Source: Sinomonas cyclohexanicum (GTDB lineage Bacteria; Actinomycetota; Actinomycetes; Actinomycetales; Micrococcaceae). From it: a stretch of DNA of 64,000 nucleotides. Location: the NCBI RefSeq assembly GCF_020886775.1, contig NZ_AP024525.1:1240001-1304000 (forward strand), read 5' to 3'. Positions 1 through 5,628 of this stretch are shown piece after piece (the first letter of the stretch is position 1; each line of letters begins with the position of its first letter). Under the pieces are notes generated by a model. It did no database searches. It saw nothing but the letters and a program-made list of their open reading frames with translations, and had not been told where the DNA came from. A program made the translations under genes and the position numbers.

Positions 1-629
1 CGGCACGCGGCCGCATGCCCAATCTCGTGGAAGATGGTGCCCGCGAGGAGCAGGGCATACAGCGAGAGCAGCATCGCCGGCGTGACAAGCACGGCCTGCA
101 GGGCTGAGAAGGCGTCTGCCCTCAGGAAGAGGTAGGTGTCAAGAGCCGCGAGGGCCATCACCGCGGCGATGACGATGGGGGTCGCGAAGAGCGGCCTGAA
201 GATGTCCGCAAGGAAGTGGACAGCGCGCTTGGGGATCAGCGTTCCCTTGACCGTTAGCGCGAGAAGGGGCGTCGCCGTGGCGAGCTTCGGCGGAGGGGGA
301 GCGTCATCCCGCGTGAGGAACCCAATCGGGGAGAGCCGCTCGGCCAGGGTGGAGGCGCCTTCGGCGTCCAGTTCCTGCCCGCAGGCCTCTGAGACCCGGC
401 GGGCGATTGCGGCCGGCTCGCTCGGCTCCGAGGAGCTCTCGAGGACAAGGTAGAGCAGCCGGCTGAGCTGAGCCACCTGGCCGTCGGCCCGGCGCACCAA
501 GTAGACCGGCTTGGTCAGGCCCGTTCCGGTAGCCTCGCCCAAGAGTTCGACGCCGTCGGCACGCATCCAGCGGACGCTGCGGTCATCGTCGGGGTCATCC
601 CGGCGGATCGCGGGTTCCTGGAGTGCCAT
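1..629 (-). CDS. M50-family (site-2-protease-like) membrane metallopeptidase, N-terminal part
   Basis: Open frame that enters from the left edge, so only the first 209 residues are visible. Residues 1 to about 115 are soluble and charged. Two hydrophobic segments follow (about 137-160 and 170-198), and the second leads into HEIGH (about residues 201-205), the zinc-binding motif of M50 intramembrane proteases. This layout matches actinobacterial proteins described as putative peptide zinc metalloproteases, which often sit beside small peptide genes. The ATG at 629 starts MALQEPAIRRDD; no long frame competes. It lies 125 nt downstream of a 64-residue peptide gene on the same strand with a hairpin between, so it probably processes or exports that peptide. 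The family call is firm from HEIGH plus the membrane segments; the substrate is inference. Confidence 0.8.
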   Translation of the reverse strand, partial: MALQEPAIRRDDPDDDRSVRWMRADGVELLGEATGTGLTKPVYLVRRADGQVAQLSRLLYLVLESSSEPSEPAAIARRVSEACGQELDAEGASTLAERLSPIGFLTRDDAPPPPKLATATPLLALTVKGTLIPKRAVHFLADIFRPLFATPIVIAAVMALAALDTYLFLRADAFSALQAVLVTPAMLLSLYALLLAGTIFHEIGHAAAC

Positions 630-681
630 GGTGTCGAATCCTCTCGGAGGTCAGCGAACGGTGTGCACATCGGGGGGGAAG

Positions 682-730
682 GCTGCGGGGGCCCCTGCAA
701 GGTTGGGGGCTGCCGAAGGGCCCCCGCAGC
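682..730. terminator. Intercistronic hairpin between peptide and peptidase genes
   Basis: A perfect 13-bp inverted repeat (682-694 with 718-730) encloses a 23-nt loop and has no T-run. It lies between the small peptide gene and the M50 gene on the minus strand. Such a hairpin may be a partial terminator or mRNA stabiliser that makes more peptide than peptidase. That role is inferred. Confidence 0.6.
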
Positions 731-754
731 GCTTGGGTGGGTGCGTCGCCGGGT

Positions 755-949
755 CTAGTGCTGCGAAACGCCGATGTTCTGGACAGCGGTGCTGTTCGCG
801 ATCGCGAAGACCGAGCCAAGGTTGGCAGCGGTCGAGGAGTTCGAGGCCAGCACGAGGGCGACGTTGCTGCCCCAGTGGAAGCTCCACGCGAGGGTCTCGC
901 GCGTCGGGAGCAGCTCGATGGTCTCTTCCGAGATGGACAGCTTCGTCAT
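755..949 (-). CDS. Small peptide, 64 aa, possible precursor peptide
   Basis: The peptide starts MTKLSISEETIELLPTRE and has two visible parts. The N-terminal 20 residues are acidic/hydrophobic and end in LPTRE. The remainder is rich in N, S, A, V and T with alternating polar and apolar residues, ending VQNIGVSQH; it has no cysteine. A clear Shine-Dalgarno AGGAG sits 8 nt before the ATG at 949; the in-frame ATG at 958 has none. The only gene downstream is the M50 peptidase, and the upstream region carries an 11-bp-period direct repeat of the type bound by SARP regulators, one of which is encoded 1 kb away. The leader/core architecture suggests a processed or secreted peptide, but no named RiPP class is recognised. 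Confidence 0.65.
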   Translation of the reverse strand: MTKLSISEETIELLPTRETLAWSFHWGSNVALVLASNSSTAANLGSVFAIANSTAVQNIGVSQH

Positions 950-1025
950 GAGAATCACTCCTGGATTTCTTCCCGGTTTCTGACTCGATTGCTTTCCAAT
1001 CGATGTCCTCAGTCAACGGGGTGGC

Positions 1026-1057
1026 CAGTTACCAGAGTGTTATCGCCGCGTTATCGC
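1026..1057 (-). promoter_or_regulatory. SARP-type operator and -10 upstream of the peptide gene
   Basis: On the minus strand GCGATAAC occurs twice (1057-1050 and 1046-1039), with starts exactly 11 bp apart, that is, one face of the helix. Seven bases after the second copy comes TAACTG (1031-1026), a plausible -10. Direct heptamer-like repeats with 11-bp period placed just upstream of the -10 are the known binding architecture of SARP activators. The BTAD/SARP protein at 1923-2678 is the obvious candidate binder. Confidence 0.65.
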
Positions 1058-1093
1058 TCTGACGTGGGCAGACTTTGGATGTGCATGAACGGG

Positions 1094-1138
1094 AGAGGCC
1101 CCCGACCACCGTTCCAAAACGGTCGGTCGGGGGCCTCT
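1094..1138. terminator. Strong hairpin terminator after the CxxC protein gene
   Basis: A perfect 14-bp stem (1094-1107 with 1125-1138) is continued by an inner 6-bp stem (1108-1113 with 1118-1123) with one bulged base. It lies 24 bp beyond the stop of the secreted CxxC protein on the minus strand and separates that operon from the peptide/peptidase unit, which therefore needs its own promoter. Confidence 0.75.
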
Positions 1139-1161
1139 TGAGCGAGGGAGACGGGCGGGCG

Positions 1162-1926
1162 TCAGCTGCCCGTCTTGACGTCCACGTTGGCCGTGACCTG
1201 TGCGCCGGTGTCCGCGGCGATGACGGCGGCGGCCTGCCGCACGGCCTCGTCCGTTGATGTGCGGGCCTTCGCCGCCTTCAGGCTGGGACCTGCCGGCGCC
1301 TTCGCGTTCGCGTCGAGACTCGCCGCGAGGGCCTCCTCGATGTGCGACACGACGCTGCGCGCGGTCGACGACAGCTCGCGCTGCTTCACACCCACGAGGA
1401 TGAACTGGATGGCCGCGCCGTTGGTCACGCACCCCGTGCAGCCCACGTTGAGCGCAGTCGAGCTGTTGTTGGCGACGATTTTACGGGCATCCGCCGTCGC
1501 GATGACTTGGATGGAGATGGCGGTCGACGTCGCGTTGTTGCCGGTGGTGCGCGCGTTCACCACGTTGTCGGCGCGGAGCGTCGACACGCCCGGAGAGGTG
1601 AGGACCTGGAGGGTCGTGGCACTGCCCGAGCACCCTTCGCAGTTGTTCTGGACCGTGGCCGACGCCGAGGCTGGGCCGCCGTTGGGCCGCAGGGGCCCCC
1701 AGACCTTGTCCGTGTCGACGGCCTTGGGGTGCCGAGCGTTCGGGATCGCGCGGGACGAGGCATGCATGTACTGGCCCCAGCCATGGCCGTCGCCGCGATC
1801 GGAATCGGCCGACGCCGGCGCGATCTGCGCGGCGAGCAGGCCTGCGGCGACGAGGCCTATGGCCGAGGCGCGGAGGAGGGGGGTGCGGGTAGGGCGGGGA
1901 CTGCGGTGGATGGCATGCTGCGTCAC
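1162..1926 (-). CDS. Secreted protein with two CxxC units, unknown function
   Basis: 254 aa, beginning with a signal peptide: basic residues, a hydrophobic stretch (21-37) and likely cleavage after APASA (about residue 40). Two CxxC motifs (CEGC at 96-99, CTGC at 163-166) each start a similar segment, SGSATTLQVL and VTNGAAIQFILV, with strand-like alternation; about 50 N/T/A-rich residues separate them. The C-terminal third looks helical and Ala-rich. The GTG start at 1926 overlaps the stop of the upstream regulator (GTGA), so the two are translationally coupled. I do not recognise a characterised family. Paired CxxC suggests disulfides or metal binding outside the cell. Its link to the SARP regulator and M50 peptidase suggests one functional locus. 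Confidence 0.7.
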   Translation of the reverse strand: MTQHAIHRSPRPTRTPLLRASAIGLVAAGLLAAQIAPASADSDRGDGHGWGQYMHASSRAIPNARHPKAVDTDKVWGPLRPNGGPASASATVQNNCEGCSGSATTLQVLTSPGVSTLRADNVVNARTTGNNATSTAISIQVIATADARKIVANNSSTALNVGCTGCVTNGAAIQFILVGVKQRELSSTARSVVSHIEEALAASLDANAKAPAGPSLKAAKARTSTDEAVRQAAAVIAADTGAQVTANVDVKTGS

Positions 1927-2678
1927 TGGGTCTCCTTCTGGGGCTGGCGTTGCCTCCCCGCCGCGTGGACGACGGCTCGGGCTCCTGCATTCTCGAGCGG
2001 CTCGGCCGTGACCAGCTGCGCGAGACGGGTGGAGGGCTCAAGGCCCATTTCCTCCGCGAGGCGACGGCGGAAATCCTCGTAGGTCCGCCGTGCGCCGGCC
2101 TCATTGCCTGCCCGCACTTGGCCGCGGATCACCAGGGCCTGCGCCGATTCGCGCAGCGGCTCGATCGCCGCCGCGCTCATCGCGGCGGCCACGGCCGCCT
2201 CAGGCCGATCCTCGCCGAGGTGGCGTCGGGCAAGGGCCTCGAGGGCGGCGATGCGCAGCTGCCGGAGGCGCTCCTGCTCGAACAGGAGCCAATCGTCGTA
2301 CCAGCCCGGAAGGAGTTCGGCGGAGTACAGGAGCTCGGTGAGGCCGAGCGTCGGCTCGGTACCCGCGAGGGCCGCGTCGGCGCCGTCGCGCAGGCGATCG
2401 AGGTCAACGTAGACGTCGTCGGAGAGCCGCAGCGGCTCCGCATCCTCGGCGAGGAGGCCGGGGAGCTGGTGGCGGATCTTGAAGACCGTGACGCGGAGGC
2501 TGCTCGCTGCCTGCTGCTCCGTGCTCTCGGGCCAGAGGAGGCCGGCGAGGTAGCTCCGGGAGCGCGGGCCGAGCAGCGCAAGAGAAGCGATCAGCCGCTG
2601 CTGGCGGGCGCCGACGGACTGTGACGTCCCGCGCCAGCGTAATTGCCAGCAGCCCAAGAGATGAAGTTCCCACGACAT
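1923..2678 (-). CDS. SARP-type transcriptional regulator (winged helix + BTAD)
   Basis: 251 aa. Residues 1 to about 95 form an OmpR-like winged-helix domain starting MSWELHLLGCWQLRW; residues about 100-230 form a bacterial transcriptional activation (BTAD) helical repeat domain with the typical AIEPLRESAQALVIRG and GLEPSTRLAQLV segments. No ATPase or TPR extension is present, so it is a short SARP. It is the first gene of an operon with the secreted CxxC protein (4-bp overlap). SARPs act as pathway-specific activators that bind 11-bp-period direct repeats near the -35, and exactly such a repeat stands before the 64-aa peptide gene at 949. Confidence 0.85.
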   Translation of the reverse strand: MSWELHLLGCWQLRWRGTSQSVGARQQRLIASLALLGPRSRSYLAGLLWPESTEQQAASSLRVTVFKIRHQLPGLLAEDAEPLRLSDDVYVDLDRLRDGADAALAGTEPTLGLTELLYSAELLPGWYDDWLLFEQERLRQLRIAALEALARRHLGEDRPEAAVAAAMSAAAIEPLRESAQALVIRGQVRAGNEAGARRTYEDFRRRLAEEMGLEPSTRLAQLVTAEPLENAGARAVVHAAGRQRQPQKETQ

Positions 2679-3405: not shown

Positions 3406-5628
3406 ATGGCCACCATCATCTACACGCACACGGACGAGGCGCCGATGCTGGCGACCTACTCGTTCCTGCCGATCGTCAAGGCATACGCCTCCGCGGCGGG
3501 CATCGAGGTCGAGACGCGTGACATCTCCTTGGCGGGGCGCATCATCGCGGTGTTCGGCGACTACCTCACCCCGGAGCAGCAGCAGGCCGACGCGCTCGCC
3601 GAGCTGGGGGCCCTGGCGAAGACGCCTGAGGCCAACATCGTCAAGCTCCCCAACATCTCCGCCTCGATCCCGCAGCTCAAGGCAGCCATCGCTGAGCTCC
3701 AGTCCTTGGGCTACGCCCTCCCTGACTACCCGGACAACCCCTCCTCGGATGAGGAGACGGACATCCGCTCGCGCTACGACAAGATCAAGGGCTCCGCCGT
3801 CAATCCCGTGCTCCGCGAGGGCAACTCCGACCGGCGCGCGCCGCTCTCCGTGAAGAACTACGCCCGCAAGAACCCGCACTCGATGGGTGCCTGGAGCGCC
3901 GACTCGAAGACGAACGTCGCGACGATGGATGCGGATGACTTCCGCTCGAACGAGAAGTCCGTGGTCCTGCCCGCGGACGACTCCCTGACGATCCAGCTCG
4001 TCCTCGCGGACGGCACCGTCAAGGAGCTCAAGAAGGGCATCAAGGTCCTTGCGGGCGAGGTCGTGGACGGCACGTTCATGAACGCTGCCGCGCTGGACGA
4101 CTTCCTGAGGGCCCAGGTGGCCCGCGCCAAGGAGGAGGGCGTCCTCTTCTCGGCGCATCTCAAGGCCACCATGATGAAGGTCTCGGACCCGGTCATCTTC
4201 GGCCACGTGGTCACGGCATACTTCTCCGAGCTCTTCGAGACCTACGGCAAGCAGCTTGCCGCGGCCGGCCTGAGCCCCAACAACGGCCTCTCCTCGATCC
4301 TCGCGGGCCTCGACGCCCTGCCCGAGGATGTGCGCGAGGGCGTCAAGGGCCTGGTCCAGAAGGGCCTCTCCGACGGCCCGGCCCTCGCAATGGTCGACTC
4401 GGACAAGGGCATCACAAACCTCAACGTGCCCTCCGACGTGATCGTGGATGCCTCCATGCCCGCCATGATCCGGATCGGCGGCCACATGTGGGGCCCCGAC
4501 GGCAAGGAGCATGACACGCTTGCCGTCCTCCCGGACTCCTCCTACGCCGGCGTCTACCAGGCCGTGATCGAGGACTGCCGCGAGCACGGTGCGCTCGACC
4601 CCACCACGATGGGCACCGTTCCGAACGTGGGCCTCATGGCTCAGGCCGCCGAGGAGTACGGCAGCCACGACAAGACATTCGAGATCCCCGCCGACGGCAC
4701 CGTCCAGCTGGTCAACCAGGGCGGCGACGTGCTGATCGAGCACGCCGTGAAGGCGGGCGACATCTGGCGCGCGTGCCAGACCAAGGATGTGCCGGTCCGC
4801 GACTGGGTCAAGCTCGCCGTGAACCGGGCCCGCGCCACGGACACTCCGGCGGTGTTCTGGCTCGACGAGACCCGCGCGCACGACCGCAACCTCATCGCCA
4901 AGGTGAACGAGTACCTCGGCGAGCACAACACCGACGGTCTCACGATCAAGATCCTCGCCCCGGCGGAGGCCACGGCATATACGCTCGAGCGGCTCCGCAA
5001 GGGCGAGGACACCATCTCGGTGACCGGCAACGTGCTGCGCGACTACCTCACGGACCTCTTCCCGATCCTCGAGCTCGGCACGAGCGCCAAGATGCTCTCG
5101 GTCGTCCCCCTCATCGCGGGCGGCGGCCTGTTCGAGACGGGCGCCGGAGGCTCGGCCCCGAAGCACGTACAGCAGCTCATCCAGGAGGACTACCTCCGCT
5201 GGGACAGCCTCGGCGAGTTCTTCGCCCTCGTGCCCTCGTTCGAGCTCTACGCCGAGCAGGCCAACCTGCCCGCCGCGAAGGTTCTGGCCGACACGCTGGA
5301 CCGCGCTACCGGCACCTTCCTCGAGGAGAACAAGTCCCCGGGCCGCAAGCTCGGGACGATCGACAACCGCGGCTCGCACTACTTCCTCGCCCAGTACTGG
5401 GCGCAGGAGCTTGCGAAGCAGACGGACGACGCCGCTCTGGCCGCCGCGTTCGCGCCGGTCGCCGAGGCGCTGACCTCGCAGGAAGAGGCCATCGTCTCCG
5501 AGCTCCTCGCCGTCCAGGGCCACCCGGTGGACCTCGGCGGGTACTACCGCCCGGACGAGGCCAAGGCCACCGCGGCCATGCGCCCCTCCCCGACGCTCAA
5601 CGCCATCGTGGACGGCATGGGCAAGTAG
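3406..5628 (+). CDS. icd: Monomeric NADP-dependent isocitrate dehydrogenase
   Basis: 740 aa, the usual size of the monomeric IDH class (about 740 residues) that is distinct from the 400-residue dimeric enzyme. It converts isocitrate plus NADP+ to 2-oxoglutarate, CO2 and NADPH in the TCA cycle, in the cytosol. Family hallmarks: the start [75 protein letters not shown] and a C-terminus ending [11 protein letters not shown]-like. The ATG is preceded by AGGAGGCG. TTGACA elements lie upstream (about 3229 and 3313). The gene is monocistronic and closed by the hairpin at 5646-5703. Confidence 0.97.

Follow-up and report, generated by a model that had tools for sequence, protein, structure and literature searches.

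What might a SARP-type regulator, a secreted cysteine protein, several short peptides and a membrane metalloprotease produce together? The question is raised by a locus of Sinomonas cyclohexanicum at the left edge of the stretch of 64,000 nucleotides that we analyzed (the window). Every part named in a preliminary description of this DNA is present on the minus strand: a SARP regulator coupled to a secreted protein with two CxxC units (called S here), and a 64-aa peptide gene next to the gene for a HEIGH membrane protein, which is cut by the window edge. The order is SARP/BTAD regulator, S, peptide A, M50 protease, peptides B and C, and purH, and the start of S overlaps the stop of the BTAD gene by 4 bases. 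The features within the window are as follows.

1..629, minus strand: M50/site-2-type protease, N-terminal 209 aa with HEIGH; the gene runs on leftwards to genome position 1239250 (459 aa whole)
264..587, minus strand: N-terminal domain of the protease, similar to PqqD (a RiPP recognition element) in an hhalign profile comparison
682..730, minus strand: 13-nt perfect inverted repeat in the interval that separates the protease gene from peptide A, from the sequence
755..949, minus strand: peptide A, a 64-aa precursor with leader MTKLSISEETIELLPTRETL and a nearly uncharged core
1094..1138, minus strand: 14-nt perfect inverted repeat in the interval between S and peptide A, from the sequence
1162..1926, minus strand: S, 254 aa; CxxC repeat units; hydrophobic, signal-like stretch near the N-terminus (aa 17–37)
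1393..1491, minus strand: repeat unit of S resembling the peptide core, aa 146–178 (peptide profile E = 0.002; hhalign)
1429..1440, minus strand: second CxxC of S, CTGC, aa 163
1630..1641, minus strand: first CxxC of S, CEGC, aa 96
1923..2678, minus strand: SARP/BTAD-type regulator, 251 aa (Pfam PF03704, E 3.4e-16, 60.4 bits)

The locus continues to the left, as had been noted, and the sequence there adds two peptide genes (L006:11191–11003 and 10933–10730), with a convergent purH past them. No modifying enzyme or exporter was recognized at the locus, this leftward sequence included. Eight neighbor proteins were compared with NCBIfam, giving purH, isocitrate dehydrogenase, a nucleotide sugar dehydrogenase, a glycosyltransferase-like protein, an HvfX-like protein below its cut-off and three proteins without a family. 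None of the eight exceeded the cut-off of a daptide or other maturation family, in line with the earlier remark that no RiPP enzyme of a known class can be seen. The 13-nt inverted repeat is a possible attenuator; a simple scan for T-tailed terminators and a scan for sigma-70 promoters returned none.

We then asked how far this arrangement recurs, using 80 named relatives, the best 80 of 461 protease loci. Many of these loci come from close relatives, and L184 and L186 are apparently one contig entered twice, so the 80 do not count as independent. A peptide ORF lies no more than 3 kb from the protease in 78/80, and two or more do so in 74/80. Peptide and protease share a strand in 190 of 195 cases, with a median gap of 231 bp. 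A BTAD gene is found in the examined stretch of 49/80 loci. The preliminary description had made peptide homologues beside M50/BTAD genes in other genomes its test; such homologues do exist, and peptide, M50, SARP and CxxC genes recur together. A profile built from 43 peptides gave strong matches in 13 of 197 family genomes, the source genome included (best E 5e-31), and these are exactly the 13 that carry the close protease type; a fourteenth has a marginal match (0.0089). Across actinobacteria the gene set is widespread.

The peptides look like leader/core precursors. Their homologues share a leader consensus, ExxELLPxR[ED]xL. At positions outside the demands of the anchoring pattern, E/D stands ten residues ahead of the Pro in 182/192 peptides, E/Q six ahead in 178/192, E three ahead in 166/192, and L/M five past it in 192/193; this conservation is partly inflated, because the search profile itself contains the leader. 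Information content of core columns is far below that of leader columns, and several loci join the same leader to unrelated cores (L157, L165, L176, L177, L180, L184 and L191). Across 43 peptides, leaders are 20.6% acidic and 7.9% basic, and cores are 1.6% acidic and 0.6% basic. The cores are hydrophobic, 38–46 aa long, and end in H, H and N in the three peptides of this genome; some distant peptides end in T.

Up to five peptide genes occur per locus (L116). By pattern, 50/80 loci have exactly one C-type peptide (the A/C subtype). Of these, 43 pair it with one or more A-type peptides by pattern, and seven with one other peptide, which was A-like in the five inspected. Nei–Gojobori (NG86) comparisons across eight loci gave dN < dS in 28/28 C-type pairs and in 27/28 A-type pairs, the sole exception being peptide A itself versus its L053 counterpart. 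Given the strong profile matches in family genomes and dN < dS in nearly all pairs, the peptides are not chance ORFs. The peptides, S and the protease matched no Pfam family, and a literature search limited to open-licence PMC papers recognized none describing the peptides or S; a described family for these two was not found.

The protease carries the hallmarks expected of an M50/site-2 enzyme, with HExxH in a membrane segment predicted by hydropathy and a distal Asp-Gly; H201, E202, H205, D297 and G298 are invariant in 26 aligned sequences. Its best named relative is the daptide leader protease, at a score far under the cut-off (NF041824, daptide_HExxH; 106.6 bits against 300; alignment aa 49–382). 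Its N-terminal domain resembles PqqD, a RiPP recognition element (RRE). An hhalign comparison of 50 sequences with 30 PF05402 proteins scored 27.4, against a maximum of 18.0 over 100 column shuffles and 14.6 for the reversed profile; taken absolutely, the match is a weak one (P 61.7). None of the 50 members received a PqqD call from Pfam, weak NCBIfam matches to RRE-type families sit among unrelated families with similar E-values, and sequence searches of the PDB with S, with the protease and with its N-terminal domain gave no useful match. Because the leader is conserved and the core variable, the protease bears a PqqD-like domain, and the genes adjoin in 78/80 loci, it is very likely that the peptide serves the M50 protein as a substrate. 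The preliminary description had it cut or exported by that protein: the substrate role holds at this strength, and cleavage and export are further steps that we infer. A conserved leader, a variable core and a dedicated maturation protein are features of RiPPs, with maturation here suggested by adjacency and the PqqD-like domain.

S resembles the product of its neighbors. The peptide profile matches its unit at aa 146–178 with E = 0.002. In hhalign, the core scored 33.1 against the S repeat unit (A1 versus A4; shuffle maximum 22.5, n = 100) and 30.9 against the CxxC region alone (shuffle maximum 17.2). In the alignment the core has T/S where S has Cys. This likeness could be due to convergence. 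Many relatives' S proteins have three CxxC units, of which the middle one is degenerate here. S is absent from the examined stretch of 31/80 loci, 15 of them A/C type; when 14 of these 15 were scanned for the CxxC motif, just a 53-aa ORF in L138 turned up. Some relatives encode the protease as a fusion with an S-like CxxC domain or with a MinD-like ATPase; the former fusion was seen in three proteins inspected in full, of 14 long ones. The multi-peptide set, the likeness of core to S and the protease fusions go beyond the preliminary description.

The computed observations are the gene set, the leader/core pattern, the PqqD likeness, one C-type plus A-like peptides per locus, the core–S likeness and the fusions. 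They are best explained, with a probability of roughly 0.6, by leader peptides that the protease matures and that join S in an extracellular assembly. Expression of the operon is probably turned on by the SARP-type regulator. In the M50 protein, the PqqD-like domain would bind the acidic leader, and the intramembrane HEIGH site would free the hydrophobic, nearly uncharged core, which would leave the membrane on the outer side. A-type and C-type cores may then assemble with one another and with S. The latter would present the same repeat units, with CxxC in place of T/S, behind a signal-like N-terminus, and could nucleate a beta-rich assembly outside the cell, cap it or anchor it. The cleavage site, the assembly and the role of S are likewise what we infer from these genes. 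In functional amyloids of the curli type, short repeat subunits rich in N, Q and S go together with a secreted partner that is related to them. The present system, known from its genes, is similar in both respects, but the Pfam curlin repeat matched neither the three peptides of this genome nor S.

Alternatively, the A and C cores could be the membrane-active halves of a two-peptide bacteriocin, with the M50 protein cutting both and S protecting the producer. The constant presence of one C-type and at least one other, mostly A-type, peptide (50/50 A/C loci) would fit, as would the length and hydrophobicity of the cores, a SARP-type gene at the locus, the sporadic spread (13/197 family genomes), and an ABC ATPase with a large permease-like protein adjoining 9–10 of the 50 A/C loci. 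Yet among the 14 largest neighbor clusters of the 80 loci, none but protease, BTAD and S occurs in more than 10 loci; no immunity or export gene is shared by most loci in the neighbor clusters. The ABC signature LSGGQ was found in at least four genes in 4/80 loci, a lower bound, as the exact motif misses most of the ABC ATPase cluster (9 loci). Most membrane-active bacteriocins are cationic, so the almost uncharged cores argue against this reading, and resemblance to the core is unexpected for an immunity protein. We regard it as unlikely.

Known peptide systems with related proteases offer further comparison. Daptides (PMC10036551) have a site-2 protease with an N-terminal RRE domain (MpaP/DapP) and a number of short precursors at each locus, whose N-terminal motif is ELExMEAP and whose cores are aliphatic; Actinomycetota are among the hosts. 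The present locus shares this design, including, by profile, the apparent fusion of an RRE to an intramembrane site-2 protease. It differs in that the oxidative decarboxylase, RRE partner, aminotransferase, methyltransferase and exporter were not recognized nearby, the invariant C-terminal Thr is missing, and a CxxC protein and a SARP are added. Membership in the daptides was rejected on the protease score, the C-termini and the lack of daptide enzymes nearby. In epipeptides (YydF/EpeX), according to PMC10885120, a small peptide is likewise matured by an M50 intramembrane metalloprotease (YydH/EpeP/LiaK); the LiaK match here, at 51.9 bits, falls short of its cut-off (225), a radical SAM epimerase was not recognized, and the peptide is different. 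In TMcins (TmcA/TmcP), too, an S2P-clan protease cuts a hydrophobic precursor within the membrane and disulfides belong to the system, features suggested here from genes. PMC13252029 describes a staphylococcal model with a DUF3267 protease, a DsbA-like enzyme and an ABC exporter, and a search of it for the term RRE gave no match.

A true RiPP whose modifying enzymes lie elsewhere in the genome, as a scattered or divergent daptide-like pathway, would account for the top NCBIfam match of the protease, for the N-terminal motif and multiple precursor copies shared with daptide clusters (PMC10036551), and for a separate PqqD-family protein encoded elsewhere in this genome. We consider it improbable, given the 106.6 bits against a cut-off of 300, peptides ending in H, H and N rather than Thr, and the absence of daptide families among the eight neighbors to which the scan was confined. 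Still less probable are secreted signaling peptides sensed by the SARP regulator or another sensor. A BTAD gene does accompany 48/50 A/C loci (all but L119 and L123; L123 lies at the end of its contig) versus 1/30 others, but no SARP is known to act as a peptide receptor, and up to five peptide genes per locus together with the core–S likeness suggest a structural or bulk product. M50 proteases often act in regulated intramembrane proteolysis, and some here are fused to an S-like domain, but cleavage of S or an anti-sigma factor, with the peptides regulating the protease, is hardly credible given a leader/core pattern with unrelated cores.

Extending the preferred reading, protease-matured peptides that assemble with S, we tentatively suggest, at somewhat less than even odds, a widespread class of protease-only leader-peptide systems in Actinomycetota and in MAGs labelled Chloroflexi. 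RRE-bearing intramembrane proteases, some of them joined directly to the scaffold or a MinD-like ATPase, would release nearly uncharged peptides that co-assemble extracellularly on a CxxC scaffold of the same repeat, and cleavage and disulfides would suffice as chemistry. If true, this would be a large enzyme-poor branch of leader-peptide systems, with recognition and cutting in one membrane protein. It would offer two ways in: the leader motif, which picks out precursors even when their cores are unrelated, and a secreted protein whose repeat resembles the product's. Fusions with S-like domains and MinD-like ATPases pose testable questions about what positions and powers a site-2 protease, and a few genes would suffice to assay the system.

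The locus lies on the minus strand of a 4.41 Mb, single-contig genome (window, 1240001-1304000), and every part listed in the preliminary description is present in window and genome. The DNA left of the window, which that description had advised inspecting, holds further precursor genes, for peptides B and C. Gene order on the minus strand is regulator, S, peptide A, protease, peptide B, peptide C.

Genes of the locus and its left flank (window positions, or positions in the fetched locus stretch L006)
2678-1923, minus: BTAD/SARP regulator
1926-1162, minus: S, a CxxC protein with a signal-like start
949-755, minus: peptide A
from 629 leftwards, minus: M50 protease, 459 aa
L006:11191-11003, outside the window, minus: peptide B
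L006:10933-10730, outside the window, minus: peptide C
beyond peptide C, outside the window, strand opposite to the locus: purH

The closest named relatives of the protease belong to Sinomonas species (66% identity to that of Sinomonas sp. R1AF57). No peptide-modifying enzyme or exporter was recognized among the eight neighboring proteins scanned. A protein at window 5818-6258 matches the HvfX copper-RiPP maturation family at 50.1 bits, under the cut-off of 80.

Using 43 peptides of 14 related loci as a profile, we searched 197 genomes of the host's family. Strong matches were found in 13, this genome among them, and these are exactly the 13 genomes whose protease is of the close type (14 loci in all); the match in a fourteenth genome is marginal (E 0.0089). 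The protease search rings in 31 of the 197, because it also reaches longer, more distant proteins. All 14 close loci carry protease and peptides, with a BTAD gene in at least 13 and S in at least 12; of these, L060 lies at the end of a contig, and L057, the second locus in its genome, is without S. Codon comparison of eight loci gave dN < dS in 27 of 28 A-type pairs and in all 28 C-type pairs, as would be expected of translated genes. Two genomes of the same genus, each with a complete locus elsewhere, have orphan A-type peptide genes with no protease found beside them (L113:9475-9684 and L114:9736-9987, both minus). Across an even draw of the phylum, peptide matches at E ≤0.001 occur in 12 of 396 genomes, this one included.

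Scanning the protease alignment against genome contigs, one genome per species, confirmed 461 relatives, of which the best 80 were analyzed. These include the genera Sinomonas, Arthrobacter, Pseudarthrobacter, Nocardioides, Intrasporangium, Georgenia, Saccharopolyspora and Streptomyces, and, more widely, Rubrobacteraceae, Solirubrobacteraceae, Acidimicrobiia and MAGs labelled Chloroflexi. Many of the loci share a genus, and L184 and L186 appear to be a single contig entered twice, so the 80 are not independent of one another. A profile of the 43 peptides plus 7 distant ones (threshold E 0.01) matched 197 ORFs in 78 of the 80 loci, with no match in L183 (a 3.2 kb contig) or L190. Two of these ORFs are S proteins and were set aside. 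The protease is no more than 3 kb away from each of the other 195, as against 6276 of 10534 ORFs overall, which bears out the expectation that the peptide stands beside M50 genes in other genomes. The median gap is 231 bp, 190 of the 195 are on the protease strand, and 74 of the best 80 loci contain at least two.

Within the same 80, patterns found A and C types together in 43 loci, with exactly one C each; seven more have one C and one other peptide, A-like in all five that were read. The BTAD gene, counted by eye, occurs in 48 of the 50 A/C loci so defined versus 1 of the 30 others, and the pair and SARP therefore mark one subtype. Upstream of the peptide genes in L107, a LuxR/GerE-type regulator (4112-4510, minus) takes the place of the SARP. 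Gene calls no farther than 5.5 kb from the 80 proteases, 737 in all, were clustered as well. Among the 14 largest clusters, the protease comes first (77 loci), with two BTAD clusters (31 and 10) and one of S (20), followed by a large permease-like protein (10) and an ABC ATPase (9), all in A/C loci; purH and the rest reach 9 loci or fewer. The permease-like protein and the ABC ATPase adjoin 9-10 of the 50 A/C loci, e.g. Nocardioides L147 and L148, and could possibly serve export or protection.

Peptide leaders were aligned on the motif proline, excluding two of the 195 that failed the anchoring pattern (L/V/A, P/E/V/Q, any, R/K, E/A/D/T). Proline (192/193) and arginine (186/193) are columns partly fixed by that pattern. 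Columns it did not require show E or D ten before the proline (182/192), E or Q six before (178/192), E three before (166/192), and L or M five after (192/193); the peptide-finding profile includes the leader, so detection and leader conservation are not fully separate. Information is lower in core columns than in the leader, with core conservation understated by the ungapped alignment. Cores of A/C loci span 38-46 residues, rich in N/Q/S/T plus Ala/Val/Ile and nearly uncharged (1.6% acidic, 0.6% basic; 43 peptides); in distant lineages the core reads INANLAAPVNAAVAANVLSDxSVAYANAEQ. In L157, L165, L176, L177, L180, L184 and L191 what follows the leader is unrelated and often rich in Gly; some of these are weak matches (E 0.0003-0.004) that owe their score to the leader only. 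A kept leader with unrelated cores next to the same protease is the pattern that a leader-recognized precursor family would give.

Tandem arrays of two to four same-leader peptides stand upstream of the protease in Pseudonocardiales-labelled MAGs (L176, L177, L184, L191, L194), and the first four have Gly-rich cores unrelated to those of the window. Beside distant loci we saw small, basic, leaderless ORFs with a core-like N/A/V repeat (L106:9828-10055, minus; L107:3830-3991, minus; L108:1804-2064, plus).

The protease N-terminal domain (50 aligned sequences) scored 27.4 (P 61.7) against 30 aligned PqqD-family stretches, versus maxima of 18.0 for 100 column shuffles and 14.6 reversed. Pfam called no PqqD there, and a PDB sequence search with the domain gave no match; NCBIfam gave weak matches to ApyI, PqqD, ScmD, PqqD_rel_X and the daptide protease, the RRE-type ones standing among unrelated families of like E-value. 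Zinc-site residues and the distal Asp-Gly are invariant in all 26 aligned sequences. Another 14 loci from genomes of the family have protease ORFs of 774-1010 aa. Three of the 14, read at full length, end in an S-kind CxxC domain after a hydrophobic segment absent from the window's protease, and a longer repeat-bearing peptide gene adjoins them. Elsewhere, 33 of the best 80 proteases carry a Walker-A pattern of the MinD/ARA kind; of three such proteins run against Pfam, two matched CbiA/AAA_31. By a crude hydropathy count, one more membrane segment precedes the S-like domain than the ATPase, suggestive only of the former lying outside and the latter inside.

S itself has up to three units, each a CxxC followed by A-x-x-Q-like residues, and the peptide profile matches the last unit of this S (E 0.002). 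Profile-profile comparison of peptides and S scored 33.1 (P 70.3), versus maxima of 22.5 for 100 shuffles of the S columns and 18.4 for S reversed; the CxxC region alone gave 30.9, versus 17.2 and 17.7. In this alignment, Thr and Ser residues of the peptides fall on the two cysteines of S. S was found in 49 of the best 80 loci and in 35 of the 50 A/C loci; of the 15 A/C loci where it was missing, 14 were scanned for CxxC motifs, which turned up just one 53-aa ORF, in L138. A putative lipoprotein gene, judged by eye, directly adjoins S in two distant loci (L106:5666-6442, minus; L111:4997-5842, plus); the one in L106 has no Pfam family.

We propose that the operon yields precursors whose leader would be bound by the protease and which would be cut within the membrane; the nearly uncharged cores would then exit outward and assemble with S. 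Cleavage, its site and direction, and assembly are all inferred. The main alternative is a two-peptide bacteriocin against which S would protect the producer. The likeness of core and S, the S-like domain fused to the protease, the near-zero core charge and the lack, among the neighbor clusters, of an immunity or export gene common to the loci make us lean, tentatively, toward assembly. For daptides, PMC10036551 describes an RRE domain at the N-terminus of a site-2 protease that serves leader removal. The window's protease is a relative of the daptide protease (aligned over aa 49-382 at 106.6 bits, under the cut-off of 300) and the system resembles the daptide maturation end; membership was rejected, as three tested daptide features did not appear. 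Pfam and NCBIfam gave no family model for these peptides or S, other S members giving single weak matches to unrelated families, and we recognized no description of either in the open-licence PMC literature searched. Assembly of the cores with S would make this system a new kind, for which there is a fair chance.
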